A stretch of DNA of 64,000 nucleotides from NCBI GenBank assembly GCA_030157785.1, contig JAOAUC010000055.1:62001-126000 (forward strand). The letters run 5' to 3'. Position numbers and translations under genes: made by a program. Shown here in pieces: positions 13,473-30,151 of this stretch. The notes beneath the pieces are model-generated. The model did not search any database. It was given only the letters and a program-made list of their open reading frames with translations, and was not told the DNA's origin. Origin of the DNA: Zoogloea oleivorans (GTDB lineage Bacteria > Pseudomonadota > Gammaproteobacteria > Burkholderiales > Rhodocyclaceae). Numbering within the stretch: the first letter of the stretch is position 1; each line of letters opens with the position of its first letter.

Positions 13473-15509
13473 ATGCGCGACTCGTCAGTGGTTTCCTTGG
13501 TGCGAAGTACGGACTACCGGGTGGAGGCGCTCGGGCAGGCAATCGAAGAGGCACTCCGGCTGATCGACCTGCCACTGGCCCGACTCATCCGCCCCGGGGC
13601 ACGGGTACTGATCAAGCCTTACCTGCGCCACGGCAGCGTACGCCAGCCCGAAACACGCATGGTGTCGCACCCGGCGCTGATCGAGGCAAGCATCCGGCTG
13701 GTGCGTGACTGCGGCGGCCACCCGGTGCTGGGCGACGAAGGCTCGCGCTACCTGCACAAGCCGCCGCTGCATCCCGACGCCCTGTGGCTGCACTTGCTCG
13801 CCGACCGCAGCGGCGCCGAACTGGTGAGCTTTGCCAAGGCCGGCGGACGCATCCTGCCCAGCCGTATCCCGCGCCCGCGGGAGTACCTGCTGACCCGCGC
13901 CGTGCTCGATGCAGACGTAGTGATCAGCCTGGCCAATCCCCAGCCCCATCCAAGCCTGATCTGGAGCGGCGCGGTCAAGAACATGTTCAACGCCCTCATC
14001 GGCGAGGGCAGCAGCCGGATCTTCACGCTGCTGTACGACGAGGAGAAGATCGCCTCGGCCATGGCCGATGTCTGCCGCCTGTGCCGCCCCACCGTCAGCC
14101 TGGCCGACATGAGCACCATCTGCCCCGGCTACAAGGAGGAGCTGTGGCGGGTCGGCCTGCTCGGCGCCTCCACCGACCCGGTCGCCCTCGACAGCGCCTG
14201 CGTCCAGGCGCTGGGCTGGAATCCGGCGGACATCCCCGGCCTGACCTGGGGCGAGCGGCTCGGCGTGGGTCACTGGCAACGGGAACGCATCGAACTGCGC
14301 GGCTTGCCGTGGTCTGCGCTGCCGGTGTTCGACGTGCCCCGTCCGCCCCTTCGGGCCGACCCGCCGGAAACCGCCTTGCAGGGGGCCATGCGGACCCTCA
14401 CCAAAACCACCCTGCGATCACGGCCGGTCATCGACCGCAAACGCTGCAGCCGCTGCACGGACTGCGTCAGGATCTGCCCGATCGGCGTCATCCGGCAAGA
14501 CACAAGCGGCGCGCCGCACATCGACTACACCCGCTGCGCCGACTGCATGGTGTGCGCCGACGCCTGCCGGGAGAAGGCCATCCAGCTCGCCCCGCGCGGC
14601 TGGGTGGCGGCCCTGCGCTGGCCCGCCGGCCAGGTCCGTCGTTTGTGGCGCCGTGGCAAGGCCGGCCATGTCTGGCGCCTCGGGCCAGTCGCCCTGCGCT
14701 GGCACCTGGAAATCGCCAAGCCTGTCCGCACACCGCGGCATCACCCGCCCCCCGTTTCCGTTGAGGAACCTCAAAACATGGACAACTCCGCTCAAGCGCC
14801 CCGGGAAAACGGGCTGGCCCTGATTGTCGGCGCCGGGCCCGGCCTCGGCAGCGCCCTTGCACGGCGCTTCGCCCGGGCCGGCATGGACGTGGCCGTGGTC
14901 GCCCGCAACGGGCCTCGGCTGGACGGACTGGTTGCCGAGCTGCAGGCGCTTGGCGTCACGGCCCGCGCCTACGCCTGCGACATCACGCAGGACCAGCAGG
15001 TCGTCGACACCGTGCGCGCCGTGTGCTGCGAGATGGATGTGCCGAAGCTGGCGGTGTACAACGTGGAGCATTTCGGGCCCGGCCACGTGGTGGACATAGA
15101 AACCGCTGCCTTCCTCGAATGCTGGCGGGTCAATTGCCTGGGCGCCTTTCTGGTCGGCCGCGAAGTCGCCCGGGCCATGCTTACCCGGGGCCGCGGCACG
15201 CTCATCTTTACCGGCACCACCGCCGCCACCCGCGGCCGCGACGGCTACGCCAACATGGCGGTGGGCAAGTGGGGGCAACGGGCCCTGGCCCAGTGCATGG
15301 CGCGGGAACTGGGGCCGAAAGGCATCCACGTGGCCCACGTGATCATCGACGGCGGCATCCTCAAGGATTACGCCCCGCCTTTCATGCACGAACGCATGCT
15401 CGGGCTCTTCCCCGACGAAATCGCCGAAAACTACCTCGCCCTGCACCGCCAGCACCCCAGCACCTGGACGCAGGAGCTGGACCTGCGGCCATGGGTGGAG
15501 AAGTTCTGA
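13473..15509 (+). CDS. DUF362 - two 4Fe-4S motifs - atypical SDR fusion protein
   Basis: One uninterrupted 678-residue frame with three parts. Residues 1-310 are a DUF362 domain (VLIKPYLRHGSV, GDEGSRYLHK, WSGAVKNMFNALIGEG). Residues about 325-375 hold two ferredoxin-type clusters (CSRCTDCVRICP and CADCMVCADAC). Residues 445-678 are a short-chain dehydrogenase fold (LIVGAGPGLGSALARR). In the SDR part the catalytic Lys is present (NMAVGK) but the usual Tyr four residues earlier is Met. An ATG at 14778, preceded by TGAGGAACC, could start the SDR part on its own. It lies 176 bases before the aryl polyene operon and may add redox chemistry to it, but nothing links it directly. Electron-transfer role is inference. 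Confidence 0.8.
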   Translation: MRDSSVVSLVRSTDYRVEALGQAIEEALRLIDLPLARLIRPGARVLIKPYLRHGSVRQPETRMVSHPALIEASIRLVRDCGGHPVLGDEGSRYLHKPPLHPDALWLHLLADRSGAELVSFAKAGGRILPSRIPRPREYLLTRAVLDADVVISLANPQPHPSLIWSGAVKNMFNALIGEGSSRIFTLLYDEEKIASAMADVCRLCRPTVSLADMSTICPGYKEELWRVGLLGASTDPVALDSACVQALGWNPADIPGLTWGERLGVGHWQRERIELRGLPWSALPVFDVPRPPLRADPPETALQGAMRTLTKTTLRSRPVIDRKRCSRCTDCVRICPIGVIRQDTSGAPHIDYTRCADCMVCADACREKAIQLAPRGWVAALRWPAGQVRRLWRRGKAGHVWRLGPVALRWHLEIAKPVRTPRHHPPPVSVEEPQNMDNSAQAPRENGLALIVGAGPGLGSALARRFARAGMDVAVVARNGPRLDGLVAELQALGVTARAYACDITQDQQVVDTVRAVCCEMDVPKLAVYNVEHFGPGHVVDIETAAFLECWRVNCLGAFLVGREVARAMLTRGRGTLIFTGTTAATRGRDGYANMAVGKWGQRALAQCMARELGPKGIHVAHVIIDGGILKDYAPPFMHERMLGLFPDEIAENYLALHRQHPSTWTQELDLRPWVEKF

Positions 15510-15556
15510 CCAGCCCGGGCTCGCAAACAGTCATTTGTCATCGCCCGGCAGGCGCC

Positions 15557-15583
15557 TTGTTCGACGGGGCCTCATGTTAAAAT
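15557..15583 (+). promoter_or_regulatory. Possible sigma70 promoter of the aryl polyene operon
   Basis: TTGTTC and TAAAAT separated by 15 bases, about 100 bases before the ACP start. The -10 is good; the spacing is short. It is the best match in the 176-base gap between the DUF362/SDR gene and the operon. Confidence 0.3.
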
Positions 15584-15685
15584 CGGACGAATTCTTCTCG
15601 ACCGGCGGCAACGCAGCCCTTGCCGTTCGCAAGGCCCGGTCCGCCCGAGATTCTTTCACGCCCGTTTCCTGCATCCGAACACACC

Positions 15686-15976
15686 ATGACCACGACGCCC
15701 CCTGATAGCACGCAGGACACCACCCCGTCCCTGGCCGAAGTCGCCGAGATCATCGTGACCGCCCTCAATCTGGAAATGTCACCCGCCGAGATCGATCCCG
15801 ATGCCTCCCTCTTCGGTGACGGCCTCGGGCTGGACTCCATCGACATCCTGGAGATCGCCCTCGTCATCTCGAAGCGCTACGGCATCCAGCTGCGTGCCGA
15901 CAGCGAGGACAACACCAGCATCTTCCGGTCGCTGCGCAGCCTCACGAACTACGTCGCCAGCCAAAAGGCCGCATGA
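15686..15976 (+). CDS. Acyl carrier protein of the aryl polyene cluster
   Basis: A 96-residue carrier protein. Its GLGLDSIDILEIAL segment holds the Ser that receives the phosphopantetheine arm (DSID), in the middle of a typical four-helix ACP sequence, with an acidic composition (MSPAEIDPDASLFG). It is the first gene of the plus-strand operon and would carry the hydroxybenzoate starter and the growing polyene. Its TGA overlaps the ATG of the next gene (ATGA). Aryl polyene clusters of Enterobacteria carry two ACPs; only one is visible here. The start at 15686 is chosen because the upstream in-frame extension is not ACP-like. Confidence 0.93.
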   Translation: MTTTPPDSTQDTTPSLAEVAEIIVTALNLEMSPAEIDPDASLFGDGLGLDSIDILEIALVISKRYGIQLRADSEDNTSIFRSLRSLTNYVASQKAA

Positions 15977-16623
15977 ACAGCAAGGTTCGGCCGCTTCTTG
16001 CCGGACTGCTCATCGGTGGGCTGATCGTCTCCTACGACGGTCTCATCCATTACGTCAGCACCTTTCCCGACGCAGCCCCGTGGGCGGCCTTGATCACTCT
16101 GGTGCCCGCCATCGCCTTCGGCCTGGGCCTGCTGTTCAAGCGCTGCGGCTGGCTCCCGGCCACGCTCGGCGGACTGCTCGTGGCCGGTCTTTCCGTGCAG
16201 TTGTGGCCGCTGCTTCGGGAGAACCTGACCTGGCTCTACCTGGCCCAGTACCTCAGCACCAACATCGCCCTCGGCCTGTACTTCGGCCGCAGCCTGGGTG
16301 CGGGCCGGATACCCGTGTGCACCGCCGTCGCCGCCATGGCCCACCCCACGCTCACACCGGCCCTGCAGCACTACACGCGCCGGGTCACCCAGGCCTGGAC
16401 CACCTTCTTCTTTGCCAGTGCGGCGCTCTCGGCGATGCTTTATTTTCTGGCTCCGGCAAAAACCTGGTCCCTGTTCTCGAACGTTTTCTACCTGCCCTCG
16501 CTGGCCCTGATGTTCCTGGTCGAAGGCCTCGTACGGCTGCGTGCCCTGCCCCCGGAAGATCGCCAGAGCGTCATCGCGACGATCCGGGCCTATCAGGCCA
16601 GCACCCGACGAAACAGCGCATAG
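15973..16623 (+). CDS. COG4648-type integral membrane protein of the aryl polyene cluster
   Basis: A 216-residue inner-membrane protein with about six hydrophobic segments (for instance LLAGLLIGGLIVSYDGLIHY, AALITLVPAIAFGLGLLF, TFFFASAALSAMLYFLA). Similar COG4648 proteins sit between the ACP and the adenylate-forming ligase in aryl polyene and xanthomonadin clusters, where their job is unproven. It may organise the membrane-bound synthesis complex. The gene overlaps the ACP stop and is 15 bases before the ligase. Family assignment rests on topology and position. Confidence 0.78.
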   Translation: MNSKVRPLLAGLLIGGLIVSYDGLIHYVSTFPDAAPWAALITLVPAIAFGLGLLFKRCGWLPATLGGLLVAGLSVQLWPLLRENLTWLYLAQYLSTNIALGLYFGRSLGAGRIPVCTAVAAMAHPTLTPALQHYTRRVTQAWTTFFFASAALSAMLYFLAPAKTWSLFSNVFYLPSLALMFLVEGLVRLRALPPEDRQSVIATIRAYQASTRRNSA

Positions 16624-16638
16624 CGCCGACCTGCCTCG

Positions 16639-17976
16639 ATGAGCATCTCCACCCAGCCCCTTACCGACCACCCTGCACCGGACAGCGTCCTTGCCTGGCA
16701 GCCCGACGGCCCGGTCAGCCGCGACCGCTTCCTCGCCGATGTAAACCAGCTGGCCGACCTGCTTCCCGCAGGCCGCCACATTCTCAATATCTGCCAGAAC
16801 CGCTACCACTTCCTGGTCGGGCTTGCCGCTGCCATCGTTACCGGGCGGATCAGCCTGCTGCCCTCTACACTCGCACCGGAAGCCATTGCCCGTCTGCGCA
16901 GCGAAACGCCAGACCTGCTGTACCTGCACGACGGCCATGCCGACACCATCGATCTGCCCGGTCTCGCCTTCCCGGCGCCGCTCCCGCTGACGGACCGCAA
17001 CCTGCCGGTGCCCGGCATCCCCACCGATCAGGTCGTCGCCCACGTCTACACTTCCGGCTCCACCGGCATCCCGCTGACCCACCAAAAGACCTGGGGCGCC
17101 CTCGTCAGCAGTGCCCGCGCCGAAGCCGAACGCCTCGGTGCCCGCGGCCACGCGCTGGTCGGCACCGTCCCGCCCCAGCACATGTACGGCCTTGAATCGA
17201 CCGTGCTGATCAGCCTCCACGGCGGTGCCGCCGCGTGGTCCGGACGCCCCTTCTACCCCGCGGATATCGCCGCTGCGCTGGCCGCAGTACCCGCGCCCCG
17301 CGCCCTCGTCACCACCCCATTCCACTTGCGCACGCTGCTCGACGCCGACGTGTTCATGCCGCCCATCGACTTCATCCTGTCCGCCACCGCCCCCCTGTCG
17401 GAAGAGCTCGCCACCCGCGCCGAGGCCACCCTCGGCGCGCCGCTCCACGAGATCTACGGCAGCACCGAAACCGGCCAGCTGGCCAGCCGGCGCGCCACCG
17501 CCACCCGCGCCTGGCACCTCCTCGGCGACGCCCGCCTGCGTCCCGACGGTGACGGTCACGTGGCCAGCGGCGGGCACGTGGAAGGCATCGTTCCGATCAA
17601 CGACGTCATCGAACCCACCGACGAGCACCACTTCCTGCTCCATGGACGCAACGCGGACCTGATCAACATCGCCGGCAAGCGCACCTCGCTGGCCTGGCTG
17701 AACCAGCAACTCACCGGCCTGCCTGGCGTCCACGACGGCGCCTTCTTCATGCCCGACGAAGAGCCCGACGACCACGTCACCCGCCTGTGTGCCTGCGTGG
17801 TAGCGCCAAGCCATACCGCGAAAAGCCTGCTGAACGCCCTGCGCACACGCATCGACCCGGTGTTCCTGCCGCGCCCGCTGATCTTCACCGACAAGCTGCC
17901 CCGCAACGCCGCCAGCAAGCTGCCGCGGGCCGGCCTGCTGGCCCTGCTGCCGCCCAAGGACAAGGCCGGCGCATGA
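16639..17976 (+). CDS. Adenylate-forming acyl/aryl-ACP ligase
   Basis: A 445-residue member of the ANL superfamily. The phosphate-binding loop is YTSGSTGIPLTHQK near residue 135, the aromatic/acyl pocket region ends with EIYGSTETGQLASR, and the hinge/catalytic part includes LLHGRNADLINIAGKR. The C-terminal lid has the catalytic Lys candidate in LPRNAASKLPR. In aryl polyene clusters this enzyme activates a hydroxybenzoate or related starter with ATP and loads it on the ACP. It is shorter than acyl-CoA synthetases (about 500 aa or more), as usual in these clusters. Stop and next start overlap (ATGA). Confidence 0.88.
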   Translation: MSISTQPLTDHPAPDSVLAWQPDGPVSRDRFLADVNQLADLLPAGRHILNICQNRYHFLVGLAAAIVTGRISLLPSTLAPEAIARLRSETPDLLYLHDGHADTIDLPGLAFPAPLPLTDRNLPVPGIPTDQVVAHVYTSGSTGIPLTHQKTWGALVSSARAEAERLGARGHALVGTVPPQHMYGLESTVLISLHGGAAAWSGRPFYPADIAAALAAVPAPRALVTTPFHLRTLLDADVFMPPIDFILSATAPLSEELATRAEATLGAPLHEIYGSTETGQLASRRATATRAWHLLGDARLRPDGDGHVASGGHVEGIVPINDVIEPTDEHHFLLHGRNADLINIAGKRTSLAWLNQQLTGLPGVHDGAFFMPDEEPDDHVTRLCACVVAPSHTAKSLLNALRTRIDPVFLPRPLIFTDKLPRNAASKLPRAGLLALLPPKDKAGA

Positions 17977-18275
17977 CGGAAATCCACTGGACCGTTCCCG
18001 TCGCCCACCCGGCCTTTCCCGGCCACTTCCCCGGCCGCCCGATCCTGCCCGGCGTCGTGCTGGTGGACCAGGCCATGCGCCTCGCCGCCAGCGTCGTCAA
18101 ACCCGGCGTCGCCATCCGCGGCCTTGGCAACGCCAAGTTCTTCCAGCCGGTCGCCCCCGGCACCAGCCTGTTGTTCCGCTACCCGCCGGCCACCGCCACG
18201 GCGCTACGCTTCGAAATCCTCGCCGACGCGCGCATCGTCGCCTCGGGCAGCTTCACCCTCGGGGACTGCCCGTGA
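17973..18275 (+). CDS. ApeI-like 3-hydroxyacyl-ACP dehydratase (hotdog fold)
   Basis: A 100-residue single hotdog domain. The catalytic loop HPAFPGHFPGRPILPGVVLV holds the active His (GHFPG). The acidic partner position is Asp (LVDQAM), as in FabA, rather than the Glu of FabZ. It probably dehydrates 3-hydroxyacyl-ACP intermediates so that conjugated double bonds build up. In other aryl polyene clusters two different hotdog dehydratases work together; the second is at 24954-25391. Start ATG overlaps the ligase stop, and the stop overlaps the GTG of the acyltransferase, so it is embedded in a coupled run. Confidence 0.85.
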   Translation: MTEIHWTVPVAHPAFPGHFPGRPILPGVVLVDQAMRLAASVVKPGVAIRGLGNAKFFQPVAPGTSLLFRYPPATATALRFEILADARIVASGSFTLGDCP

Positions 18276-19222
18276 GCACACCGGCGGACACCCCGCCGAC
18301 CGCCGACGCCAGCTGGGCCAGACAGGCCGAACGCAGCTCCGTCGGCATCATGCGCTTCATGGTGTGGCTGTCCCTGAGTCTCGGGCGGCGCCTCAGCCGC
18401 ATCGTGCTGCACGGCATCGCCGCCTACTTCCTGCTTTTCGCACCGGCTGCCGGGCGCGCCTCCCGCAGTTACCTGCAGCGCGTCCTCGGCCGCCACCCGA
18501 CGCTGGCCGAGCGCTACCGCCACGTGATGGCCTTCGCCACCACCATCCACGACCGGATCTACTTCCTCAACGGACGCTTCGAGCTCTTCGACATCGACAT
18601 CGCCGGCGCTGAGCTGATTGACGCCGCCCTCGCCGACGGACGCGGGCTGCTGCTCTTCGGCGCCCACCTGGGCAGCTTCGAAGTGCTGCGTGCGGTCGGC
18701 CGGCACCACACGGAACACCCCGTGTGCATGCTCATGCACGAAGAAAACGCGCGCAAGATCAACAGCGTGCTGGCCGCCATCAACCCGGCCGCAACCCGCG
18801 ACATCCTCCCCCTCGGGCAACTCGACTCTATGCTGCGCCTGCGCGATCGCCTCGACGCCGGCCACATGATCGGCGTGCTGGCCGACCGCAGCCCCGGCGG
18901 CGACGGAACCCGCACCATCCCCTTTCTGGGCGATCCGGCGCCCTTTCCGAACGGCCCCTTCCGCCTCGCCGCCATGCTGCGCCGCCCCGTGTTCTTCATG
19001 AGCGGCGTCTATCTTGGCGGCAGGCGCTACCGCATCCGCTTCTCGCCGATCGCCGATTTCAGCCCGGTAGAGCGCAAGGAGCGGACCGCGGCCATCGACG
19101 CCGCCCAGCTCGCCTACGCGGCCCTGCTGGAAGACAGCTGCCGCGATGCCCCTTACAACTGGTTCAACTTCTTCGATTTCTGGAGCGAGCCCGCCGCCCG
19201 CCCGGAACAAAAGCCCCGATGA
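18272..19222 (+). CDS. LpxL/HtrB-like acyltransferase of the aryl polyene cluster
   Basis: A 316-residue lipid A acyltransferase-like protein starting at GTG (GTGA overlap). The hydrophobic N-terminal stretch (GIAAYFLLFAPAAG) anchors it in the inner membrane. The catalytic HX4D-like motif appears as HLGSFE (His with Glu in the acidic position), as in LpxL-type enzymes, followed by VLADRSPGGDGTRTIPFLG. It probably transfers the polyene acyl chain, or a fatty acid, to a glycerolipid-type head group. This is distinct from the two LpxL-type genes at 49-51 kb, which more likely serve lipid A. Confidence 0.85.
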   Translation: MSTPADTPPTADASWARQAERSSVGIMRFMVWLSLSLGRRLSRIVLHGIAAYFLLFAPAAGRASRSYLQRVLGRHPTLAERYRHVMAFATTIHDRIYFLNGRFELFDIDIAGAELIDAALADGRGLLLFGAHLGSFEVLRAVGRHHTEHPVCMLMHEENARKINSVLAAINPAATRDILPLGQLDSMLRLRDRLDAGHMIGVLADRSPGGDGTRTIPFLGDPAPFPNGPFRLAAMLRRPVFFMSGVYLGGRRYRIRFSPIADFSPVERKERTAAIDAAQLAYAALLEDSCRDAPYNWFNFFDFWSEPAARPEQKPR

Positions 19223-19791
19223 CACGACGCCTCCTCGCCACGCTGGCCCTGGCCCTCGCCACCACACCGGCCCTGGCTGCCTGGGACATCGCGCAGCTGA
19301 TGGCCGAACTGGCCCGCAACCCCGGCGGGGAGGCGCTGTTTACCGAGAAGAAATACATCGCCCTGCTCGACAAGCCGGTCGTTTCCTCCGGCCAGATGCG
19401 CTACACCGCCCCCGATTACCTGGAGAAACGCACCCTCCTGCCCCGCCCGGAACGCCTTCTGCTCGACAAGGACGCCATCACCATCGAACGGGGCAAGCAG
19501 AAGTTCACCCTGCGCCTCACCGACCAGCCGGAAATTCTCGCCTTCGCGGACAGCATTCGCGGCACCCTCTCCGGCAACCGCCAGGCCCTCGAACGCAACT
19601 ACGCCCTGCACCTGTCGGGCAGCCGGGACAACTGGACCCTCAACCTGTCGCCGAGCAATCCGCGCATCGCCGAAGTCGTCACCCGCATCACCATCGGCGG
19701 CAGCCGCCAGCAGGTCCGCAGCGTCGAGTACATTCAGACCGACGGCGACCGTGCCGTGATGAAGATCGACCCGGTGGCTGAACCCCGATGA
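19219..19791 (+). CDS. LolA-like outer-membrane lipoprotein carrier protein
   Basis: A 190-residue exported protein with signal peptide TRRLLATLALALATTPALA. The mature part resembles the half-barrel LolA fold (GEALFTEKKYIALLDKPVVS, GQMRYTAPDYLEKRTL, and a C-terminal QVRSVEYIQTDGDRAVMKI). LolA-like proteins are regular members of aryl polyene and xanthomonadin clusters and are thought to ferry the lipid-linked pigment through the periplasm, working with the MMPL exporter encoded next. Both junctions are ATGA overlaps. Confidence 0.85.
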   Translation: MTRRLLATLALALATTPALAAWDIAQLMAELARNPGGEALFTEKKYIALLDKPVVSSGQMRYTAPDYLEKRTLLPRPERLLLDKDAITIERGKQKFTLRLTDQPEILAFADSIRGTLSGNRQALERNYALHLSGSRDNWTLNLSPSNPRIAEVVTRITIGGSRQQVRSVEYIQTDGDRAVMKIDPVAEPR

Positions 19792-22115: not shown

Positions 22116-22116
22116 C

Positions 22117-22899
22117 ATGGCCCGCTGGCAGCCCAGTCCCTTCCTGCAGGCCAGTGCCGTGATCCACGCAGGAGCCGGTGCCGGCCTGCTCCTCGCTCCC
22201 GCGCACTGGCCGCTGGCCGTCGGCGCCGTGGCCGCCAACCACCTTGCCCTCACCGTGGCCGGCCTGCTGCCCCGCAATGGTCTCCTCGGCCCCAACATCA
22301 CCCGTCTGCCGGCCGACGCCGCCGCCCGCGGCGAGATCGTCCTCTCCATCGACGACGGCCCCGACCCGGATGTCACCCCCCGGGTGCTCGACCAGCTGGC
22401 CGCCGCCAGGGCCCGCGCGACCTTTTTCTGCATCGGCCGCCGGGCTGCCGCCCACCCGGCGCTGGCGCGGGAAATCATCGCCCGCGGCCACACCATCGAG
22501 AACCACAGCGAACACCACTGGAAGCGCTTCTCGACCTTCGGCCCCGGCGGCATGGCACGGGAAATCAGCACCGCCCAGGAGACCCTGACGCAGATCACAG
22601 GCTGCGCACCGCGCTACTTCCGGCCGCCGGCCGGCCTGCGCAACCCCTTCCTCGACCCCGTGCTGGCCCGCCTCGAGCTGCGCCTCGCCACGTGGACCCG
22701 CCGTGCCTACGACACCCGCGTCGGCAACCCGCAGCGGGTTCTGGCGCGCCTCGGCGACGGGCTGGCCGGCGGCGACATCCTGCTCCTCCACGATGGCAAC
22801 GCCGCCCGCAGCCCGGCCGGCACGGCGGTAATCCTCGAGGTCCTGCCGCAGTTGCTGGCCCGCATCCGCGCCGCGGGGCTGACGACCGTCACCCTGTGA
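22117..22899 (+). CDS. Polysaccharide deacetylase (NodB) family protein
   Basis: A 260-residue carbohydrate esterase 4-type protein. After a hydrophobic N-terminal region it has the NodB motifs in order: SIDDGPDP (motif 1 with the metal and catalytic Asp pair), HTIENHSEHHW (motif 2 metal His residues), RYFRPPAG (motif 3) and ILLLHDG (motif 5 His). It should remove an acetyl or acyl group from a sugar. Its place inside the pigment operon suggests it edits the sugar or lipid head group of the exported product; the real substrate is unknown. Confidence 0.87.
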   Translation: MARWQPSPFLQASAVIHAGAGAGLLLAPAHWPLAVGAVAANHLALTVAGLLPRNGLLGPNITRLPADAAARGEIVLSIDDGPDPDVTPRVLDQLAAARARATFFCIGRRAAAHPALAREIIARGHTIENHSEHHWKRFSTFGPGGMAREISTAQETLTQITGCAPRYFRPPAGLRNPFLDPVLARLELRLATWTRRAYDTRVGNPQRVLARLGDGLAGGDILLLHDGNAARSPAGTAVILEVLPQLLARIRAAGLTTVTL

Positions 22900-22963
22900 A
22901 CGCCCTCCGATGGCGGGGGAGCCGCTCTGGTAGACTCGCGCCACTCTTTCCGCGCCTCACACC

Positions 22964-24157
22964 GTGACACCACTGCACCTCGCGCGCCACACCGTCGTCA
23001 CCTGCGTCGGCGACGGGCTGGCCCCCCTTCGTGCCGCCCTCCTCACCGGCACCGGCGGCCTGACGCCCTGCCGCTTCAACGGTGTCGCCCTCGACACCTG
23101 GATCGGTGAAGTCGCCGGCCTCGACGACATCGCGCTGCCCGCCCCGCTGGCCGAATACGACTGCCGCAACAACCGCCTGGCCCGCCGCGGGCTGGAAAGC
23201 GACGGCTTCGACGCCGCCGTGCGTGCCACCATCGCCCGCCACGGCGTGCGGCGCGTCGGCGTGATCCTCGGCACCAGCACCTCGGGCATCCTGAGCACCG
23301 AAGCCGCCTATCGGCAGCGTGACCCGCTCAGTGGCGCCCTGCCGGCCAGCTTCAACTACCGGGGCACCCACAACACCTATTCGCTGGCCGCCTTCGTGCG
23401 TGACTGGTTCGGGCTGGAAGGGCCTGCCGGCGTGGTGTCCACCGCCTGCTCCTCGTCGGCCAAGGTCCATGCCGCGGCGGCCCGCATGATCCACGCCGGC
23501 CTCATCGACGCCGCCATCGTCGGCGGTGTCGACAGCCTGTGCCTGACCACCCTGCACGGCTTTGCCTCGCTGGAACTGACCTCCCCCGAACCCTGCCGCC
23601 CCTACGACGCCGGCCGCAAGGGCATCTCCATCGGCGAGGCCTCCGCCTTTGCGCTGCTCGAACGCCCACCTGCCAGCCTTGATGCCGACGCGGTCCTGCT
23701 GCTGGGCTGCGGCGAATCCAGCGACGCCTACCATATGTCCTCGCCACACCCGGAAGGGCGCGGCGCCCGCCTGGCCATGGAAGCCGCCCTCGCCGACGCC
23801 GGCCTCACGGCGGACGACATCGGCTACATCAACCTCCACGGCACCGCCACGCCCAACAACGACGCCGCCGAAGGCTGCGCCGTCGCGGCGCTGTTCGGCA
23901 CGCGGGTGCCCGGCAGCTCGACCAAGGGCATCACCGGCCACACCCTGGGCGCGGCCGGCGCGCTGGAAGCCAGCGTCTGCGCCCTGGCCCTCGCCGAGGG
24001 CTTCCTGCCCGGCAGTGTCAATACCCGCATGCTCGACCCGACCATCCCCATCGACTACGTGCTGAGCACCCGCGCAGCCGCCATCCGCTACGCCATGAGC
24101 AACTCCTTCGGTTTCGGTGGCAGCAACTGCAGCCTGGTTTTCGGGAGGGCCGGATGA
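22964..24157 (+). CDS. Beta-ketoacyl-ACP synthase (FabF-like) of the aryl polyene cluster
   Basis: A 397-residue condensing enzyme starting at GTG. The full Cys-His-His triad is present: active Cys in VVSTACSSSAKV near residue 165, His in INLHGTATPNND near 290, and His in GITGHTLGAAGA near 325. It would perform the decarboxylative condensations that lengthen the aryl polyene, as a heterodimer with the chain-length factor encoded next (ATGA overlap). A 64-base gap separates it from the deacetylase gene, the longest gap inside this operon, so an internal promoter is possible. Confidence 0.93.
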   Translation: MTPLHLARHTVVTCVGDGLAPLRAALLTGTGGLTPCRFNGVALDTWIGEVAGLDDIALPAPLAEYDCRNNRLARRGLESDGFDAAVRATIARHGVRRVGVILGTSTSGILSTEAAYRQRDPLSGALPASFNYRGTHNTYSLAAFVRDWFGLEGPAGVVSTACSSSAKVHAAAARMIHAGLIDAAIVGGVDSLCLTTLHGFASLELTSPEPCRPYDAGRKGISIGEASAFALLERPPASLDADAVLLLGCGESSDAYHMSSPHPEGRGARLAMEAALADAGLTADDIGYINLHGTATPNNDAAEGCAVAALFGTRVPGSSTKGITGHTLGAAGALEASVCALALAEGFLPGSVNTRMLDPTIPIDYVLSTRAAAIRYAMSNSFGFGGSNCSLVFGRAG

Positions 24158-24960
24158 GCGCCCCGCACAGCCTCTGCGCATGGATCGAAGGCGTCGGCCT
24201 GATCGCCCCGGGCATGCCCGACTGGGCCAGCGGGGCAGAAGTCCTCGCCGGACGTGAGCCCTTTCAAAGCGCCCCCAGCGTGCTCCCGGCTCCGCTGCTG
24301 CTGCCCCCCGCCGAGCGCCGCCGCGCCAGCCGGGTGGTGCGCGTGGCCCTCGCCAGCGGCCTCGCCGCGCTGGAGCATGCGGGTGTCGATGCCGCCGCCG
24401 TGGCGGCAATCTTCTCCGCCTCCACCGCCGACGGGCACAACTGCCACGCCCTGTGCGAAACCCTGGCCTCCAATGACCACCGGGTCTCGCCGACGCGCTT
24501 TCACAACTCGCTCCACAACACCCCGGCCGGCTACTGGAGCATCGCCACTGGCGCCATGAGCGCCAGCCAGTCCCTGTGTGCCTACGACGGCAGCTTCTCG
24601 GCCGGCCTGCTCGAAGCCATGGTGCAGACCGCCACCAGCCAGGCGCCCGTCCTGCTGGTGGCCTACGACGCGGAGCATCCCGACCCCCTGTTCGCCGTTC
24701 GCCCGATTCCCGACGCCGCCGGCATCGGCCTCGTCCTCAGCCCGGTACAGACACCGCGCAGCCTCGCGCGCATCTCTGTCGCGCTGAGCGACACCCCGCC
24801 CGACCCGCTCACAGATCCAGCCCTCGACACTCTGCGCACAGCCATTCCGGCCCTGCGCGGCCTGCCCCTGCTCGGCCTGCTGGCCGCCGGCGGCCCCGGC
24901 TGCGTCACGCTGGAATATCTCGCCCCCCTCAGCCTCAGCGTGAGCCTCGACCGATGCTAG
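24154..24960 (+). CDS. Beta-ketoacyl synthase chain-length factor
   Basis: A 268-residue protein with only the N-terminal half of a ketosynthase fold (SLCAWIEGVGLIAPG at the start, then RVSPTRFHNSLHNTPAGYW). There is no active-site Cys in the TACSSS position and no downstream His residues, so it should not condense by itself. Such short partners pair with the active ketosynthase in aryl polyene clusters and help set chain length. It overlaps the ketosynthase gene at one end and the dehydratase gene at the other, consistent with equal amounts of the partners. Confidence 0.87.
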   Translation: MSAPHSLCAWIEGVGLIAPGMPDWASGAEVLAGREPFQSAPSVLPAPLLLPPAERRRASRVVRVALASGLAALEHAGVDAAAVAAIFSASTADGHNCHALCETLASNDHRVSPTRFHNSLHNTPAGYWSIATGAMSASQSLCAYDGSFSAGLLEAMVQTATSQAPVLLVAYDAEHPDPLFAVRPIPDAAGIGLVLSPVQTPRSLARISVALSDTPPDPLTDPALDTLRTAIPALRGLPLLGLLAAGGPGCVTLEYLAPLSLSVSLDRC

Positions 24961-25391
24961 ACCGCGCCGCCATTGCCGCCCGAATCCCGCACCAGGGGGA
25001 CATGTGCCTGCTCGACACGGTGCGCGACTGGAACGCCTCGACCATCCAGTGCACCGCCAGCAGCCATCGCCGCGCCGACAACCCGCTGCGCAATGACGCA
25101 CAGCTCGGCATTGCCGCCGGCATCGAGTACGCCGCCCAGGCCATGGCCCTGCATGGCGGCCTGCTCGCCGACAGCAGCCAGCCGCCCCGCCAGGGCTACC
25201 TGGCCAGCGTGCGCAGCGTCAACTTCCACACCCTGCGCCTGGACGAGCAGCCCGGCGACCTGTTGGTCGAGGCCGAACGCCTGTCCGGCGACGCCAACCA
25301 GGTGCTCTACCGCTTTGCCGTGTCCGCCGCCGGGCAGCCGCTGCTCGACGGCCGCGCCGCGGTGATCCTCGACGCCGGGGCGCTGGCATGA
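24954..25391 (+). CDS. ApeP-like 3-hydroxyacyl-ACP dehydratase (hotdog fold)
   Basis: A 145-residue hotdog protein. It begins LDRAAIAARIPHQGDMCLLD; the PHQGDM His matches the substrate loop of the ApeP/FabZ-like subgroup. A long central helix follows (GIAAGIEYAAQAMALHGG) with a Glu in the catalytic acid position. It is expected to act as the second dehydratase of polyene extension, alongside the ApeI-like protein at 17973-18275. The ATG lies seven bases before the end of the chain-length factor gene, and the stop overlaps the ketoreductase start. Confidence 0.87.
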   Translation: MLDRAAIAARIPHQGDMCLLDTVRDWNASTIQCTASSHRRADNPLRNDAQLGIAAGIEYAAQAMALHGGLLADSSQPPRQGYLASVRSVNFHTLRLDEQPGDLLVEAERLSGDANQVLYRFAVSAAGQPLLDGRAAVILDAGALA

Positions 25392-26107
25392 GGCGCGCCC
25401 TCGTCACCGGGGCCAGCGGCGGCATCGGCGCTGCCATCGCCCGTCAGCTCGCCGCCGACGGCCATCACGTACTGGTGCACGCCAACCGCAACCCGGACAA
25501 GGCCGCCGCGGTCGTCGCCGACATCCTCGCCACCGGCGGCTCCGCCGAGGCTGTGGCCTTCGACATCACCGACGCCGCCGCCACCGGCGCAGCGCTGGAA
25601 GCCATCCTTGCCAGCGGCCCGGTGCACATCCTCGTGAATAACGCCGGCCTGCACGCCGACGCCGTCTTTCCGGGCATGGGGCCGGACAAGTGGCAGCAGG
25701 TCATGGACGTGAACCTCAACGGTTTCTACAACGTCACCCAGCCGCTGACCATGCCGATGATCCGCGGCCGCTGGGGGCGCATCATCACCATCACCTCGGT
25801 GGCCGGACTGGTCGGCAACCGCGGGCAGGTCAATTACGCCGCCGCCAAGGGCGCCCTGCATGCGGCCACCAAGTCGCTGGCCCTCGAACTGGCCAGCCGC
25901 GGCATCACCGTCAATGCGGTGGCCCCGGGCATCATTGCCACCGACATGATCGAAGGCAGCTTCGACCAGGCCGCCATCGACCGCATCGTGCCGATGAAGC
26001 GCGCCGGCAAACCGGAAGAAGTCGCCGATCTGGTGTCCTTCCTGGCCTCCGGACGGGCCACCTACATCACCGGCCAGGTCATCTCGGTCAACGGCGGGAT
26101 GATCTGA
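25388..26107 (+). CDS. FabG-like 3-oxoacyl-ACP reductase of the aryl polyene cluster
   Basis: A 239-residue classical SDR ketoreductase. The nucleotide-binding motif is VTGASGGIGAAIA, followed by NNAGLHADAVF, ITITSVAG with the catalytic Ser, and YAAAK with the Tyr-Lys pair. The end VISVNGGMI is the usual FabG C-terminus. It should reduce the 3-oxo group formed by the ketosynthase before dehydration. It is the last gene of the plus-strand operon, coupled by ATGA to the dehydratase. Confidence 0.93.
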   Translation: MRRALVTGASGGIGAAIARQLAADGHHVLVHANRNPDKAAAVVADILATGGSAEAVAFDITDAAATGAALEAILASGPVHILVNNAGLHADAVFPGMGPDKWQQVMDVNLNGFYNVTQPLTMPMIRGRWGRIITITSVAGLVGNRGQVNYAAAKGALHAATKSLALELASRGITVNAVAPGIIATDMIEGSFDQAAIDRIVPMKRAGKPEEVADLVSFLASGRATYITGQVISVNGGMI

Positions 26108-26123
26108 ATCCGTAAGTCCCGCT

Positions 26124-26472
26124 GCCGTCAATTTTTCAGTCTCCGTCGATGACTCATCGATCCGCCAGATGGAATCAAGACTGATGGGGCGACCTGTGGG
26201 GGCGACTTCAGTCGCCCAGCTCCCCGTTGAATCATCGACATGCCCTTGATCGGAGTCCGAGGGCGACTGAAGTCGCCCCTACATCACCGAAATTCCGACC
26301 ACTGCGGGTCAAACCGCCGCTTCCTGTTCCCTCGATTGCGAACGCCTAGCGCGGCATCAATATCCGCCGCCGTCGATTAAATATCCCTGGCGATCAAAAC
26401 ATCCCCGCCAGGCATGGAATTTTCCACGCCCGCCGTTGATTTTTCAGTCCAAGTCGATAATTTATCCATCCG
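26124..26472. repeat. Two 41-base degenerate direct repeats
   Basis: Units at 26124-26164 and 26432-26472. Both read GCCGT, two variable bases, ATTTTTCAGTC, three variable bases, GTCGAT, then a variable stretch ending ATCCG. By eye 32 of 41 positions agree. They may be the ends of an old element or two copies of a short dispersed repeat. Confidence 0.55.
26195..26283. repeat. REP-like inverted repeat, copy 1
   Basis: Left arm 26195-26217 and right arm 26261-26283 are near-perfect inverse copies with core GGGGCGACTTCAGTCGCC. Each arm is itself a small hairpin (GGCGACT / AGTCGCC). One base of the outer left end differs (TGTGG instead of TGTAG). Two more copies of the same pair occur at 50882 and 51936. 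Confidence 0.85.
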
Positions 26473-26630
26473 GAGCGGAGATAAATCATCGGCGGGGATG
26501 GATTAAATATCGAAATTCATCCTTTTATTCCCCTCCCGGATTATTAAATCCCTCTCCGGCGATATTAAATCCATGATCGGCATGGAAAGAATGACGCCTG
26601 ACACCCGAAGAAGGATGCGGCGGCATCCCT

Positions 26631-27389
26631 CTACCCCCGCAGCTTCCTCACCACCAGCCCCGGCAGGCGCAGGATGAAACCGACGACCAGCCGCGCGTGC
26701 ATCCAGGTCAGCAGCTTGTTGTCGCGAAAATAGCGGAAGTGCGAGACACCCCCTTCGTCGGCCCTGAAGTAACGCACCGGGGCCGGCAGGTTGATGGGCC
26801 GCACGCCGGCCCAGGCCAGGCGCACCACGGCTTCCGGATCGAAGTCGAAACGGCGCATCCAGCGCTGACGGCTCATGATCCTTTCCAGCGGGGCAACCGG
26901 ATAGACGCGAAAGCCGAACAACGAATCGCCGATGCCCATCCACAGGGTTTCCAGGTTGGCCCACCAGTTGGAGATTTCCCGGCCCTTCACCCGCAATTGC
27001 GGCGCGGCAGCGTCGAAAACCGGCTTGCCGAGCACCATGCAGCCCGGGTTGCGGGCCGACACGGCCATGAACTCGGGGATGCACGGGGCCGGATGCTGGC
27101 CGTCCGAATCCATCGTCAGTACATGCGTAAAGCCTGCGGCGGCGGCGGCGCGCAGGCCTTCCAGCACGGCGGAGCCCTTGCCGCGGTTTTCCGGCAGCAC
27201 GATCACCCGGATGCCCGGGTCGGCCGCGGCCATGGCCTGCAGGCGCTCAGGGCTGCCGTCGGTGCTGCCGTCCACCACGACCCATACGGGGTTCCAGTAG
27301 CGGCGCGCCCCTCGCACGGTTTCGTCCACCTTGGGGCCGGGGTTGTAGCTGGGAATCAGGACCAGATGGGTGGTGGAGACCTCGATCAC
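26631..27389 (-). CDS. Family 2 glycosyltransferase of the aryl polyene cluster
   Basis: A 252-residue dolichyl-phosphate-mannose-synthase-like GT2 enzyme. It starts at GTG (GTGA overlap with the acyltransferase) with HLVLIPSYNPGPKVDETV. It then has VVVDGSTDGSPERL, LPENRGKGSAVLEGLR, and the metal-binding TMDSDGQHP. The C-terminus is hydrophobic and basic (LVVGFILRLPGLVVRKLR), suggesting membrane association. GT2 enzymes occur in many xanthomonadin and aryl polyene clusters and may add the sugar or head group onto the polyene lipid. It is the last gene of the minus-strand operon. Confidence 0.87.
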   Translation of the reverse strand: MIEVSTTHLVLIPSYNPGPKVDETVRGARRYWNPVWVVVDGSTDGSPERLQAMAAADPGIRVIVLPENRGKGSAVLEGLRAAAAAGFTHVLTMDSDGQHPAPCIPEFMAVSARNPGCMVLGKPVFDAAAPQLRVKGREISNWWANLETLWMGIGDSLFGFRVYPVAPLERIMSRQRWMRRFDFDPEAVVRLAWAGVRPINLPAPVRYFRADEGGVSHFRYFRDNKLLTWMHARLVVGFILRLPGLVVRKLRG

Positions 27390-28183
27390 GATGAAGGGCT
27401 TTCACGGTTTGGATTGCCGGGGGACGCGGGGCAGTGGGCCATCTCCTTGCGGAAATAGCCCTCCAGCTCCCCGGTAAAACTGCGGATATGGGCCGGAGCC
27501 CCGAAGCGGCGCCCCAGACGGACAGTGCAGCGAAGCGGCAGCTCCGGCTTGCGGAATAGCGGCCAGGCCTTGCCCAGGTAGGGCGAGCTGAACTCGATGA
27601 TCAGCGACTGCAGCGGCACCCCGGTGCTGCTGGCGATCAGGCCGGCGGCGTTGGTGAAGGCATCGACCGGAAAATGCAGCGTGCGCGAACCCTCCGGAAA
27701 AATCACCAGGTGCACGCCCTGCTGCAGTTCGGCGCAAGCCCGCCGGACCATGCTTACCGGCGCATCGTTGCGGATATAGCGGGCCAGCCGGGCCCCCGCA
27801 CCGAGGAGAATGTTGTCCATCAGCGACGCCTTCATCACGCAGACCGCATTGGGCAGACGGGAGACGATCATCACCACGTCGAGCAGCGAGGGGTGGTTGG
27901 CGACCAGGATCAGGGGCTGGTCGCGGCGCAGGGCATTCAGGGCCGCGAGATCGAAGCGGCAGGCACAGAAGATCGTCAGGAAATGCAGGTACACGCGAAA
28001 CCCCACCGAGATCGCCAGACGCCCGACACGCCGCCCGGCCCGCGCAGGCAGCAAGGCCCCCAGCAGTGCACAGGGCAGCCAGCCCAGGCACAGCAGGGCC
28101 AGGGCACTGAGCCCCAGCACCATGGCGAGGTATTCGTAAACCGTCCACAAACGGCGCCCCAGGCGTGACCCAAAGCTAGTCAT
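27386..28183 (-). CDS. PlsC-type acyltransferase of the aryl polyene cluster
   Basis: A 265-residue lysophospholipid acyltransferase-family protein. A hydrophobic N-terminal segment (YLAMVLGLSALALLCLGWLP) is followed by the catalytic NHPSLLD (HX4D) near residue 98 and the glycerol-phosphate-binding FPEGSRT near 160. It probably esterifies the aryl polyene or a fatty acid onto a lipid head group. The ATG overlaps the chorismatase stop (ATGA), and its own stop overlaps the GTG of the glycosyltransferase. The operon therefore encodes two unrelated acyltransferase types together with the LpxL-like one at 18272. Confidence 0.88.
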   Translation of the reverse strand: MTSFGSRLGRRLWTVYEYLAMVLGLSALALLCLGWLPCALLGALLPARAGRRVGRLAISVGFRVYLHFLTIFCACRFDLAALNALRRDQPLILVANHPSLLDVVMIVSRLPNAVCVMKASLMDNILLGAGARLARYIRNDAPVSMVRRACAELQQGVHLVIFPEGSRTLHFPVDAFTNAAGLIASSTGVPLQSLIIEFSSPYLGKAWPLFRKPELPLRCTVRLGRRFGAPAHIRSFTGELEGYFRKEMAHCPASPGNPNRESPSS

Positions 28184-29205
28184 CGACGGGCAAACAGGTG
28201 ACAGGCCTGGGCTTCGAGCTCGACGAGGAGATCGGCCCGGCACACATCGGCATGGACATAAACGATGGGCGCCTCGGCCCCCAGGGCCCGGACCAGTTCG
28301 GCCTGCACGGCCGCCAGGTGTTCCGGGTGGCGCACATAGGCGCGGCCGCTCAACTCGTCGAGCCGGTAGGCCGGACCGGCGCTGACCCGGCTGGCCTCGG
28401 CGAGCAGCGCCTCCAGGTTGGCGACAATCTCGCGGGTCTGGGCAGTCGGGTCACCAGGATGAACAGTGAGGTGCCCGACGATGCTGGCCGTACCCGATAC
28501 GAACAGCCATTCCTGCCCCGCCACCCGGGCCAGGGCCGCCCGCGAGAAGGTCGGGCTGCGCGGGCCGTAGTCGGCCGGATAGCGGTAGGCACTGAGTTGG
28601 CGGGGATTCTCCAGCGGGGTGCACGGCGCCCGGGCGGCGAGAAAGGCGATGCTCAGGGGGCCGCCCGCCACGCCCAGCGCGCTGGCAGCCGGAATGGTGC
28701 AGCCGTGCAGGCGATTGGCGTCGGCGAAGGCCTGATGCCGACCAATGTTGAACTGGCGGTAACGCTCCAGGCCGTCGGCGGCGCCGTTGATATCGTCGAG
28801 GTAATTCCAGACCCGCCACAGGTGCGGATAGCCCGCCTCGGCAAGCACCCGGAACAGGCTCACGTAAGCGCGCCGGGCGGCCACCTGCAGGGGTGTGGCG
28901 TCTTCATCGCCAGCGTCTTCGGCAAGGGAAATCACGCCGAAAAGCAGATGCCCGTCGCAACGGAAATGCACCCCGTGGGCCACGCTGTCACGAGAGGCGC
29001 CGGCGCCGAACCAGACTTCTGCCGGCCCGCTGTCGTCACCGAGTTGCGGCGCGAAAATCTGCTGCAGGGGCAGCCCGACAGCCGCCAGTCCGGCCGGCAA
29101 CTCACGACCAACCCAGGAAGCCCCGAGCATGGCGGGGTCGTCCGGACTGCCGGCGACAGCGGAAACAGGCAGAAGACGATGCAGGCGGTAGTCCTCGCCC
29201 CTCAC
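28180..29205 (-). CDS. XanB2-like chorismatase (3-/4-hydroxybenzoate synthase)
   Basis: A 341-residue protein related to the XanB2/FkbO/Hyg5 chorismatases, which split chorismate into pyruvate and 3-hydroxybenzoate, 4-hydroxybenzoate or a dihydroxy acid. The C-terminal YjgF-like half shows PRSPTFSRAAL, WLFVSGTASIVGH and PADYGPRSPTFSR, with family Arg and Glu residues. XanB2 itself is about the same length. In xanthomonadin synthesis this enzyme makes the aromatic starter; the same role is likely here. The frame stays open upstream to 29415, but the family-like sequence begins at GTG 29205, which overlaps the TGA of a decayed upstream frame (GTGA), as at other junctions of the cluster. Confidence 0.85.
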   Translation of the reverse strand: MRGEDYRLHRLLPVSAVAGSPDDPAMLGASWVGRELPAGLAAVGLPLQQIFAPQLGDDSGPAEVWFGAGASRDSVAHGVHFRCDGHLLFGVISLAEDAGDEDATPLQVAARRAYVSLFRVLAEAGYPHLWRVWNYLDDINGAADGLERYRQFNIGRHQAFADANRLHGCTIPAASALGVAGGPLSIAFLAARAPCTPLENPRQLSAYRYPADYGPRSPTFSRAALARVAGQEWLFVSGTASIVGHLTVHPGDPTAQTREIVANLEALLAEASRVSAGPAYRLDELSGRAYVRHPEHLAAVQAELVRALGAEAPIVYVHADVCRADLLVELEAQACHLFARR

Positions 29206-29399
29206 CGACCGGCACCCGGCCTGATGCTCATCGGCCGCCGCTGCCAGCCCGCCAGCGACTGACGGAAGTTGCCGATGAAGGAGACGCGGTAGATCACCTT
29301 GAAGAGGTTGCGCATGGTGGAGTTGGTGATCCGGTAGATGAATCACGGGAAGGCCCTGGCGCATTCGAAGCCGCTGTTCACGGCCGGCACCCGCGCGGT
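29202..29399 (-). pseudogene. C-terminal remnant of a lost gene between PAP2 and chorismatase genes
   Basis: A 66-codon stretch in one frame with an in-frame TGA at 29345-29343. Before the stop it reads VNSGFECARAFP and after it FIYRITNSTMRNLFKV, continuing YRVSFIGNFRQSLAG. Its final TGA overlaps the GTG of the chorismatase, the same coupling used elsewhere in the locus, so a real gene probably once ended here. The Tyr/Asn/Arg/Phe-rich tail reminds me of the C-terminus of flavin-dependent oxidoreductases/halogenase-like proteins in aryl polyene and xanthomonadin clusters, but I cannot confirm it. Upstream a TAA at 29402-29400 closes the frame. Confidence 0.45.
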
Positions 29400-29434
29400 T
29401 TATACCGCAATACAAAATAGCCCGCCACCTTTGC

Positions 29435-30151
29435 TCAGGCGGCCGGACGGGGCTTTTTCAGTCCGGGCGACACCAGCGCCATCGTCAGGGCCAGGGCAAA
29501 CCCCGCCACCACGTCGAGCATCACATGCTGCTTGGTTGCCAGCGTCGAAAAGACGATCAGCCCGCACCACAGCCAGTTGCCGTGCCGCCAGCCGCGCCCG
29601 GCCGCCATGCCGCGCAGGTCCTGATTCAGCCAGATGGCGGAATACAGGGCGCTTGCCACGTGCAGCGACGGGCAGGCGTTTCCGCCGGCGTCGATGCCTT
29701 TCAGGAAGGCATAGCCGGGATAGAGCCCCCAGTCCAGGTCGGCCGGCGGCACCGCAGTCGGCCAGAAGACAAAGAACAGGACGCCCGCCAGGCATAGCCC
29801 GCCCATGTGCCAGCCGTAGCTGAACAGGCGTGCCCGGTCCGGAGCCAGGGCCGGCGGCAGGGACACGTAGATCCACAGGGAGGCGTAGGCCACCAGCGCC
29901 CAGGGCTGAAAGCCCACCACCCGATCGACCCACGTGAGGGGCATTGCCACCACCGGAAACAGCGGGTGGTGGAGCAGATGCAGATAGGCCGCGAAGAACG
30001 CCCCCATGAAAAGGCTGATACCACCGGCCTTGAGCCACCACAGGTAACGCAGACGCAGCAGCAACTCGGCCGCCACGGAACGGCCGGCGGGATCTGCCGG
30101 AAGCGCCGGGGAAGCCGGCTCATCCAGGGGCAAGACGCGTGATTCCAACAA
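29435..30151 (-). CDS. PAP2-family inner-membrane phosphatase/transferase
   Basis: An integral membrane protein with about six helices. It keeps the second PAP2 motif (CPSLHVASA, catalytic His) and a third motif LATKQHVMLDVVAG with the second His and Asp. The KQH form is typical of the PAP2_3/inositol-phosphorylceramide-synthase-like subgroup rather than PgpB. No ATG is available near the N-terminus; TTG at 30151 or 30148 follows GGAGTCTTC, so I start there. A TTG at 30184 is the longer option. It could dephosphorylate or transfer a lipid head group for the pigment lipid. First gene of the minus-strand pigment operon. Confidence 0.8.
   Translation of the reverse strand: MLESRVLPLDEPASPALPADPAGRSVAAELLLRLRYLWWLKAGGISLFMGAFFAAYLHLLHHPLFPVVAMPLTWVDRVVGFQPWALVAYASLWIYVSLPPALAPDRARLFSYGWHMGGLCLAGVLFFVFWPTAVPPADLDWGLYPGYAFLKGIDAGGNACPSLHVASALYSAIWLNQDLRGMAAGRGWRHGNWLWCGLIVFSTLATKQHVMLDVVAGFALALTMALVSPGLKKPRPAA

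Follow-up and report, generated by a model that had tools for sequence, protein, structure and literature searches.

The arcuflavin (arc) cluster of Azoarcus sp. BH72 is the closest described relative of the gene cluster reported here, and according to its gene table (Table 1 in PMC3949708) it comprises an acyl carrier protein (ACP), ArcU, an acyl-ACP ligase, two dehydratases, two acyltransferases, a LolA-like protein, an exporter, a polysaccharide deacetylase (arcN), a ketosynthase (KS) with a KS-like partner, a reductase, a glycosyltransferase and a chorismatase, with one ACP (arcV) in the arc part. Counterparts of all of these are present at positions 15686-30184 of the window (the whole 64,000-nucleotide stretch of Zoogloea DNA analysed here). 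The aryl polyene (APE) cluster at these positions is of the arc type and intact. With the ape cluster of Escherichia coli, as tabulated in PMC8253772, the window shares the pair of KS and chain-length factor (CLF), acyl-ACP ligase, two dehydratases, reductase, COG4648 protein, LolA-like protein, RND-family exporter and acyltransferases; the E. coli cluster has two ACPs, the second ketosynthase ApeR, a methyltransferase (ApeB) and a thioesterase, while its table lists neither a chorismatase nor a NodB-type deacetylase. Xanthomonadin clusters of Xanthomonas resemble the window, by the description in PMC3949708 only, in a chorismate-utilising enzyme, a ketosynthase with an unusual CLF-like partner, a reductase, a dehydratase and an acyltransferase; according to the same source their pigments vary in bromination and methylation, whereas the window has no halogenase or methyltransferase left.

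Compared with the arc genes of BH72 as tabulated (PMC3949708), the window holds one locus instead of two, lacks the methyltransferase, halogenase, antiporter and MipA-like genes, yielded no DarB, and contains a PAP2 gene that does not appear in Table 1. Such clusters are already known in kind; what is added here is that this one has been pruned and still holds gene fossils, and that two Zoogloea lineages show pruning of the same genes. The locus is very probably an arc-type APE-lipid cluster that is pruned and still works, as argued from its gene content, synteny and homology, from deletion junctions, from the fossils of a second ketosynthase (KS2) and a halogenase, and from the constraint on the retained genes. 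A term search listed no paper linking Zoogloea with aryl polyenes, which is no proof of absence, and among the papers listed by a search on gene loss in xanthomonadin and arcuflavin clusters no title concerned loss of tailoring genes.

The window lies inside one 441-kb contig of a draft genome, 87% complete, that totals 4.69 Mb in 87 contigs; all negative searches of this genome below refer to that completeness. A genome tool grouped it in one genus with the reference Z. oleivorans assembly (G018). The window KS was 94% identical to the Z. oleivorans KS, and the coordinates of the G018 KS match are those of locus L012 (NZ_SDKK01000005.1), which served as reference for the deletions (blastn alignment).

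Gene content and conservation of the cluster

The cluster consists of a plus-strand arm (15686-26107) and a convergent minus-strand arm (26631-30184). An open frame was recovered for every gene named by the original prediction, in the order given there (Pfam and open reading frame (ORF) calls), and 8 of the 11 plus-strand neighbour junctions were overlaps of 4-7 bases, so that this arm appears operon-like. The predicted extent, 13473..30151, took in at its start a DUF362-4Fe4S-SDR fusion gene that had not been described. In the list below, Arc letters were assigned from annotation and gene order, the BH72 sequences themselves not having been compared; at that level, the window and BH72 have the same gene kinds.

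15686..15976, plus: ACP, ArcV position, Ser in GLDSIDIL (Pfam PP-binding 37.5 bits; NCBIfam NF006617 127 bits, cut-off 70)
15973..16623, plus: COG4648-like membrane protein, ArcU/ApeG position (no Pfam match; named by gene order and conservation)
16639..17976, plus: AMP-forming acyl-ACP ligase, ArcT (Pfam AMP-binding)
17973..18275, plus: hotdog dehydratase, ArcS/ApeI-like (Pfam FabA-like; ApeI-like model 24.9 bits, under the cut-off of 28.5)
18272..19222, plus: LpxL-type acyltransferase, ArcR (Pfam Lip_A_acyltrans)
19219..19791, plus: LolA-like carrier, ArcQ (Pfam LolA_3, 69 bits)
19788..22115, plus: MMPL exporter, ArcP (Pfam MMPL)
22117..22899, plus: NodB-type polysaccharide deacetylase, ArcN, with DDGP and HSEHH motifs (Pfam PF01522)
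22900..22963, plus: 64-base gap, site of the arcM-type methyltransferase in Z. oleivorans (blastn junction 22904|22915 = L012 9219|9952)
22964..24157, plus: ketosynthase, ArcK/ApeO, with TACSSS and both His motifs (NF006618 537 bits, cut-off 407; best PDB matches 7f28_B, 6qsp_A)
24154..24960, plus: CLF-like partner, ArcJ/ApeC (PDB matches 6qsp_B and 7f28_A only)
24954..25391, plus: second hotdog dehydratase, ArcI/ApeP-like by position and conservation (no Pfam or other family match; no match in a PDB search)
25388..26107, plus: FabG-type ketoreductase, ArcH/ApeQ (NF004200 364 bits, cut-off 273)
26108..26630, no strand: intergenic gap between the convergent arms, site of the arcG-type antiporter in Z. 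oleivorans, with a dispersed repeat inside (blastn 26120..26351 = L012 13157|14450)
26631..27389, minus: GT2 glycosyltransferase, ArcE (Pfam PF00535)
27386..28183, minus: PlsC-type acyltransferase, ArcD (Pfam PF01553)
28180..29205, minus: chorismatase, ArcB/XanB2 position, GTG start (Pfam PF21168; Hyg5 5ag3, FkbO 4bps)
29190..29389, minus: broken pieces, with stops, of an ArcA-type FAD halogenase, low edge approximate (blastn pieces 29297-29355 and 29352-29389 plus a C-terminal part)
29435..30184, minus: PAP2 phosphatase-like membrane protein (Pfam PAP2_3)
15604..15648, plus: 3' tail of KS2, a deleted second ketosynthase gene (37/45 bases as in L012, stop codon gone)
13473..15509, plus: neighbouring fusion of DUF362, two 4Fe-4S motifs and SDR, probably outside the pathway (Pfam, motifs)

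The KS falls within NCBIfam subfamily NF006618, retains its Cys-His-His motifs, as the predicted intact triad had implied, and is paired with a KS-like partner of the ApeO:ApeC type. At E values up to 1, this partner matched only two chains in the PDB, 6qsp_B, from what we take to be the Xenorhabdus ApeO:ApeC pair, and 7f28_A. The latter entry is the AbApeO-AbApeC complex (PMC8358021), and both members of the pair match the solved ApeO:ApeC complexes. The partner had been described as a Cys-less CLF. An Ala does replace the KS nucleophile (alignment with the KS, register uncertain), but a Cys lies eight residues past that column (SLCAYDG) in the window protein and in 7/8 relatives aligned, so that the protein is not strictly Cys-less. 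Expected motifs were also present in FabG, ACP, deacetylase and chorismatase; for these (chorismatase apart) and for the KS, the meaning of the motifs is presumed. The same cluster holds the ACP, acyl-ACP ligase, ketoreductase and two hotdog dehydratases (ArcI/ApeP by position only) together with LolA-like, MMPL exporter, COG4648-like (by position only) and acyltransferase genes. Marks of the arc type are the deacetylase between exporter and KS and the glycosyltransferase, acyltransferase and chorismatase genes; two further marks, the ArcM methyltransferase and the ArcA halogenase, have been lost, a fossil of the latter being left. None of arcF, arcL, arcO, arcW and arcX was noticed inside the cluster, although no search was aimed at them. 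The gene set and the KS pair (by PDB matches, the BH72 table and the loci of relatives) support the arcuflavin/xanthomonadin-like reading that had been proposed.

The nearest solved structures to the chorismatase were Hyg5 (5ag3) and FkbO (4bps), and its start is most likely the GTG at 29203-29205, the front of the long ORF 28180-29415 not being chorismatase. The signature of CH-II (CH-Hyg5) chorismatases, as opposed to the CH-III (CH-XanB2) type, consists according to PMC7170507 of two Gly, a Cys and an active-site Glu; in the Hyg5 alignment (Nat-hyg5 numbering by constant offset), the second Gly, the Cys (DVCR) and the Glu (LLVELE) are present, and the first Gly is replaced by Ala. A promoter and terminator scan between the arms gave no useful signal, with 1 and 2 sites against 0.4 and 0.8, respectively, in shuffled sequences.

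Conservation was followed in relatives by a contig scan that returned at least 595 stretches, at least 544 of them encoding KS relatives; the cluster genes were mapped on the best 80 loci and on three plasmid records, and counts refer to 82 of these 83 loci (L151, which has a KS and none of the other core genes, being excluded), with loci lacking enough flanking DNA set aside from each denominator. The NodB-type deacetylase had been singled out as unusual, an idea ruled out by its presence in all 74 loci holding both transporter and KS, always between the two; it is a standard member of these clusters, and arcN of Azoarcus sp. BH72 is a polysaccharide deacetylase in the table already cited (PMC3949708). 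The genes R-Q-P-N-K-J-I-H stood in the same order on one strand in 62 of the 63 loci having all eight, and the GT2 gene was convergent in 53/56. Accessory genes were more variable: the methyltransferase, always between deacetylase and KS, was present in 56/77 loci, the antiporter in 51/65, KS2 in 18/26, the chorismatase in 15/18, and a halogenase match and a MipA-like gene in 16/18 each. Among the plasmids, an annotated Azospirillum record carried the same operon with one ACP, the deacetylase and the methyltransferase and without a chorismatase; the Variovorax match was a KS without other annotated APE genes around it, and the Caballeronia record was used as DNA only.

PAP2 genes (29435-30184 in the window, and also in L017, L054, L058 and L075, for example) occurred in at least 20 of the 80 loci in varied positions, including between deacetylase and KS. 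From this recurrence, PAP2 would seem to belong to the pathway although the BH72 table does not list it.

Gene losses and their recurrence in Zoogloea

Z. oleivorans L012 has the shared genes in the same order, with 79-97% protein identity and at the same place before a gene resembling indolepyruvate ferredoxin oxidoreductase (IOR). It keeps ACP1, KS2, methyltransferase, antiporter, MipA-like and halogenase genes and has no DUF362-ferredoxin-SDR gene at this place (ACP1, antiporter, MipA-like and halogenase are labels given from gene order in the BH72 table and from the appearance of the translations, not from family searches). Alignment placed the missing genes at defined junctions. ACP1 and KS2 are absent where window 15604-15609 corresponds to L012 283|1798, the methyltransferase at 22904|22915 (L012 9219|9952), the antiporter within 26120..26351 (L012 13157|14450) and the MipA-like gene at 28191-28195 (L012 16303|17136), at the 3' end of the chorismatase. 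No intact FAD halogenase is present; three pieces are left, and two of them are 86% and 89% identical to L012. The remaining KS2 tail and halogenase pieces show that these two genes were lost rather than originally absent, and loss is the probable explanation for the methyltransferase, antiporter, MipA-like gene and ACP1 as well. The end of the halogenase may have been kept because the chorismatase GTG overlaps the TGA of the remnant.

Elsewhere in the assembly, neither a methyltransferase nor a halogenase orthologue was found, a DNA-level search gave no antiporter or MipA-like gene, and the best match to KS2 (35%) was presumably FabF; ACP1 was not searched for separately. The original prediction noted only one ACP and no clear methyltransferase; both observations hold, and gene loss is their best explanation. 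Two further candidates were rejected: an apparent deletion inside the MMPL gene was due to a run of N in L012, and KS2 was not accepted as an orthologue of ApeR (7f27), which ranked in the PDB search below the best matches, FabF enzymes.

The cluster KS was detected in 9 of 23 Zoogloea genomes (E up to 1e-60). Methyltransferase and halogenase orthologues occurred in the same seven of these nine (the halogenase of G001 being partial), and the methyltransferase in none of the 14 genomes without the cluster KS; matches of 27% in G007 and, as a second match, 28% in G018 were not counted as halogenase orthologues. KS2 was found at 79% or more in 6/9, among them G008, where a contig end cuts it; in a seventh, G001, the contig (L010) begins at the ACP. 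The two KS-bearing genomes without KS2, methyltransferase and halogenase are the window genome and G013, whose locus (L002) is also without antiporter, MipA-like gene and chorismatase. The junctions in L002, determined against its intact sister L006, differ from those of the window, and no gene fossils were found in that comparison. In a tree of eight concatenated proteins from 14 loci, the window grouped with L012 and L002 with L006, each with support of 100, and under parsimony the two reductions are thus independent.

It is conceivable, if doubtful, that halogenase, methyltransferase, antiporter, MipA-like gene and ACP1-KS2 form one dispensable decoration module, shed whole and independently in two or more Zoogloea lineages, with selection maintaining the bare pathway to the polyene lipid. 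Counting against this, partial gene sets are common across wider taxa, where strictly all-or-none co-loss was rejected: L011 keeps KS2, methyltransferase and chorismatase with no antiporter, MipA or halogenase match, and L017 lacks methyltransferase and antiporter but has a halogenase match. Were the module real, the undecorated polyene lipid alone would carry a fitness benefit, and ACP1-KS2 would serve the decorated product and not basic chain building. Close Zoogloea relatives, some with the full cluster and some with a pruned one at the same site in the chromosome, amount to a natural knock-out series, and a comparison of their pigments would show the roles of halogenation, methylation and the second ketosynthase.

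Selection on the retained genes was compared between window and L012, where pairwise dN/dS (nonsynonymous to synonymous rate ratio) ranged from 0.07 to 0.33 over the cluster genes, relative to 0.06-0.37 between the full clusters L003 and L004. Codon changes polarised with three full-cluster relatives were 40 nonsynonymous and 142 synonymous on the window branch and 27 and 108 on the L012 branch (Fisher p 0.78). There was no overall relaxation of selection on the retained genes, which argues against general decay.

Predicted product and alternative explanations

Judging from the gene kinds, the chorismatase ArcB would make a hydroxybenzoate (3-HBA or 4-HBA, the 3- or 4-hydroxy acid), which ArcT would load onto the ACP ArcV; the ArcK:ArcJ pair would extend this starter with malonyl units, each being reduced and dehydrated by FabG (ArcH) and the hotdog proteins ArcS and ArcI to give a conjugated polyene. 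ArcR and ArcD would then join the polyene acid to a lipid anchor, in whose assembly GT2 (ArcE), the deacetylase (ArcN, presumably acting on an amino-sugar anchor) and PAP2 may take part. Transport of the lipid to the outer membrane would fall to the MMPL protein ArcP and the LolA-like ArcQ. How the anchor steps follow one another, and on which substrates deacetylase and PAP2 act, is as tentative as the chemistry. Having deleted ACP1-KS2, methyltransferase, antiporter, MipA-like protein and halogenase, the lineage would make a product without arcM-type methylation, ArcA-type halogenation and dialkylresorcinol. Since neither methyltransferase nor halogenase is left, the lipid is expected to bear an undecorated hydroxyaryl polyene. 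ApeO-ApeC alone gave full-length polyene in vitro, as reported in PMC8358021, and loss of a second KS need therefore not stop synthesis.

No DarB-type protein was found in the assembled genome, in which the PF08541 matches were limited to a protein presumed to be FabH and a thiolase-like one below threshold (DarA was not searched for), and the product is thus probably an undecorated APE lipid and not an arcuflavin hybrid. The arcuflavin-like reading holds for the gene set and the KS pair, but 'arcuflavin-like' does not mean that arcuflavin is made. Across the genus, PF08541 detected a second KASIII-like gene beside a DarA-like gene in G001, G004 and G011 and one KASIII-like gene within a 777-residue frame in G020. 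In these three genomes, dar-like clusters (L163 5212-12147, L164 and L165, in G011, G004 and G001) exist besides the APE cluster, with ABC transporter genes and a pair that we presume to be DarA and DarB from the look of the proteins and the Table 1 gene order; an ACP and a KS were seen in those of G011 and G004. Arcuflavin-type hybrids may thus occur in the genus.

A product of the arcuflavin/flexirubin type, that is, a polyene-dialkylresorcinol ester, is nevertheless highly improbable for the window genome. Kinship with the arcuflavin cluster and the DarA/DarB-like pairs of three other Zoogloea favour it, and the same search missed even FabH in the incomplete genomes G002 and G007, where it gave no match at all, so that incompleteness of the window genome also leaves it some room; against it stands the PF08541 result in that genome. 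Still less credible is an assembly artefact as the source of the missing genes: the genome is known from a single incomplete draft, but the window lies inside a 441-kb contig, the fossils have diverged from L012 (halogenase 86% and 89%, KS2 tail 37/45), and searches of the other contigs did not recover the missing genes. Very unlikely, too, is a role for the DUF362-ferredoxin-SDR fusion as a new pathway enzyme replacing the lost ACP1-KS2 step. It does precede the ACP in the same orientation, at the ACP1-KS2 site of other Zoogloea, but relatives of this 678-residue protein covering all three parts (66-71%) occur in 6 of 22 other Zoogloea (the G005 copy being truncated where its contig ends), and the APE KS was seen in none of these six genomes, two of which are about 80% complete. 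In three of these cluster-free carriers, the fusion gene stands directly before the IOR gene, which in the window follows the APE cluster (in the other three, the contig ends with no IOR in the stretch). The DUF362 part was present in 0/83 other cluster-region loci, many of which have no stretch upstream of the ACP, and among the matches listed from 37 genomes outside the genus none covers it. The fusion shares a variable chromosomal slot with the cluster and is most likely no pathway enzyme.

A dying cluster, which would have lost its accessory genes first and whose remaining genes would by now lack function or expression, is the least improbable of these alternatives, though still unlikely. 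Five separate losses relative to Z. oleivorans, two with fossils, the 14/23 Zoogloea without cluster KS (E up to 1e-60, some genomes being incomplete), and nonsynonymous changes equalling or exceeding synonymous ones in U and LolA on the window branch would fit it; every retained frame is intact, however, the window branch has no overall nonsynonymous excess (p 0.78), and only accessory genes are gone, the synthesis core being complete. The working but pruned cluster remains the preferred reading, with several points weighing against it. A lost gene could lie in the unassembled part of a single, 87% complete assembly; two proteins have no family match above cut-off; the counts for U (6 nonsynonymous, 4 synonymous) and LolA (4 and 4) are small, and the branch test cannot time losses within the branch. 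Moreover, ApeR, another second KS, raises throughput according to PMC8358021, so that KS loss may cost yield.

The chromosomal slot and repeats

The cluster lies in a variable Zoogloea slot (window 6810-34176), reaching from a RecG-RidA pair to the IOR gene and holding, in varied combinations, the APE cluster, a GlcD-like gene, a DUF3015-DUF4105 pair, the fusion gene or an MCP-like gene. What we take to be RecG and RidA flank the same slot in several genomes, and part of the other gene names (GlcD-like, DUF3015-DUF4105 and MCP-like among them) is likewise presumptive. Between the two arms, a palindromic, REP-like element of about 97 bases (26186-26284) has at least 38 other places in the genome, with at least 82 matches over the two strands and 40 of 120 candidates scored, and the intergenic stretch at 26363-26626 has a 77% match at one other place (C25).

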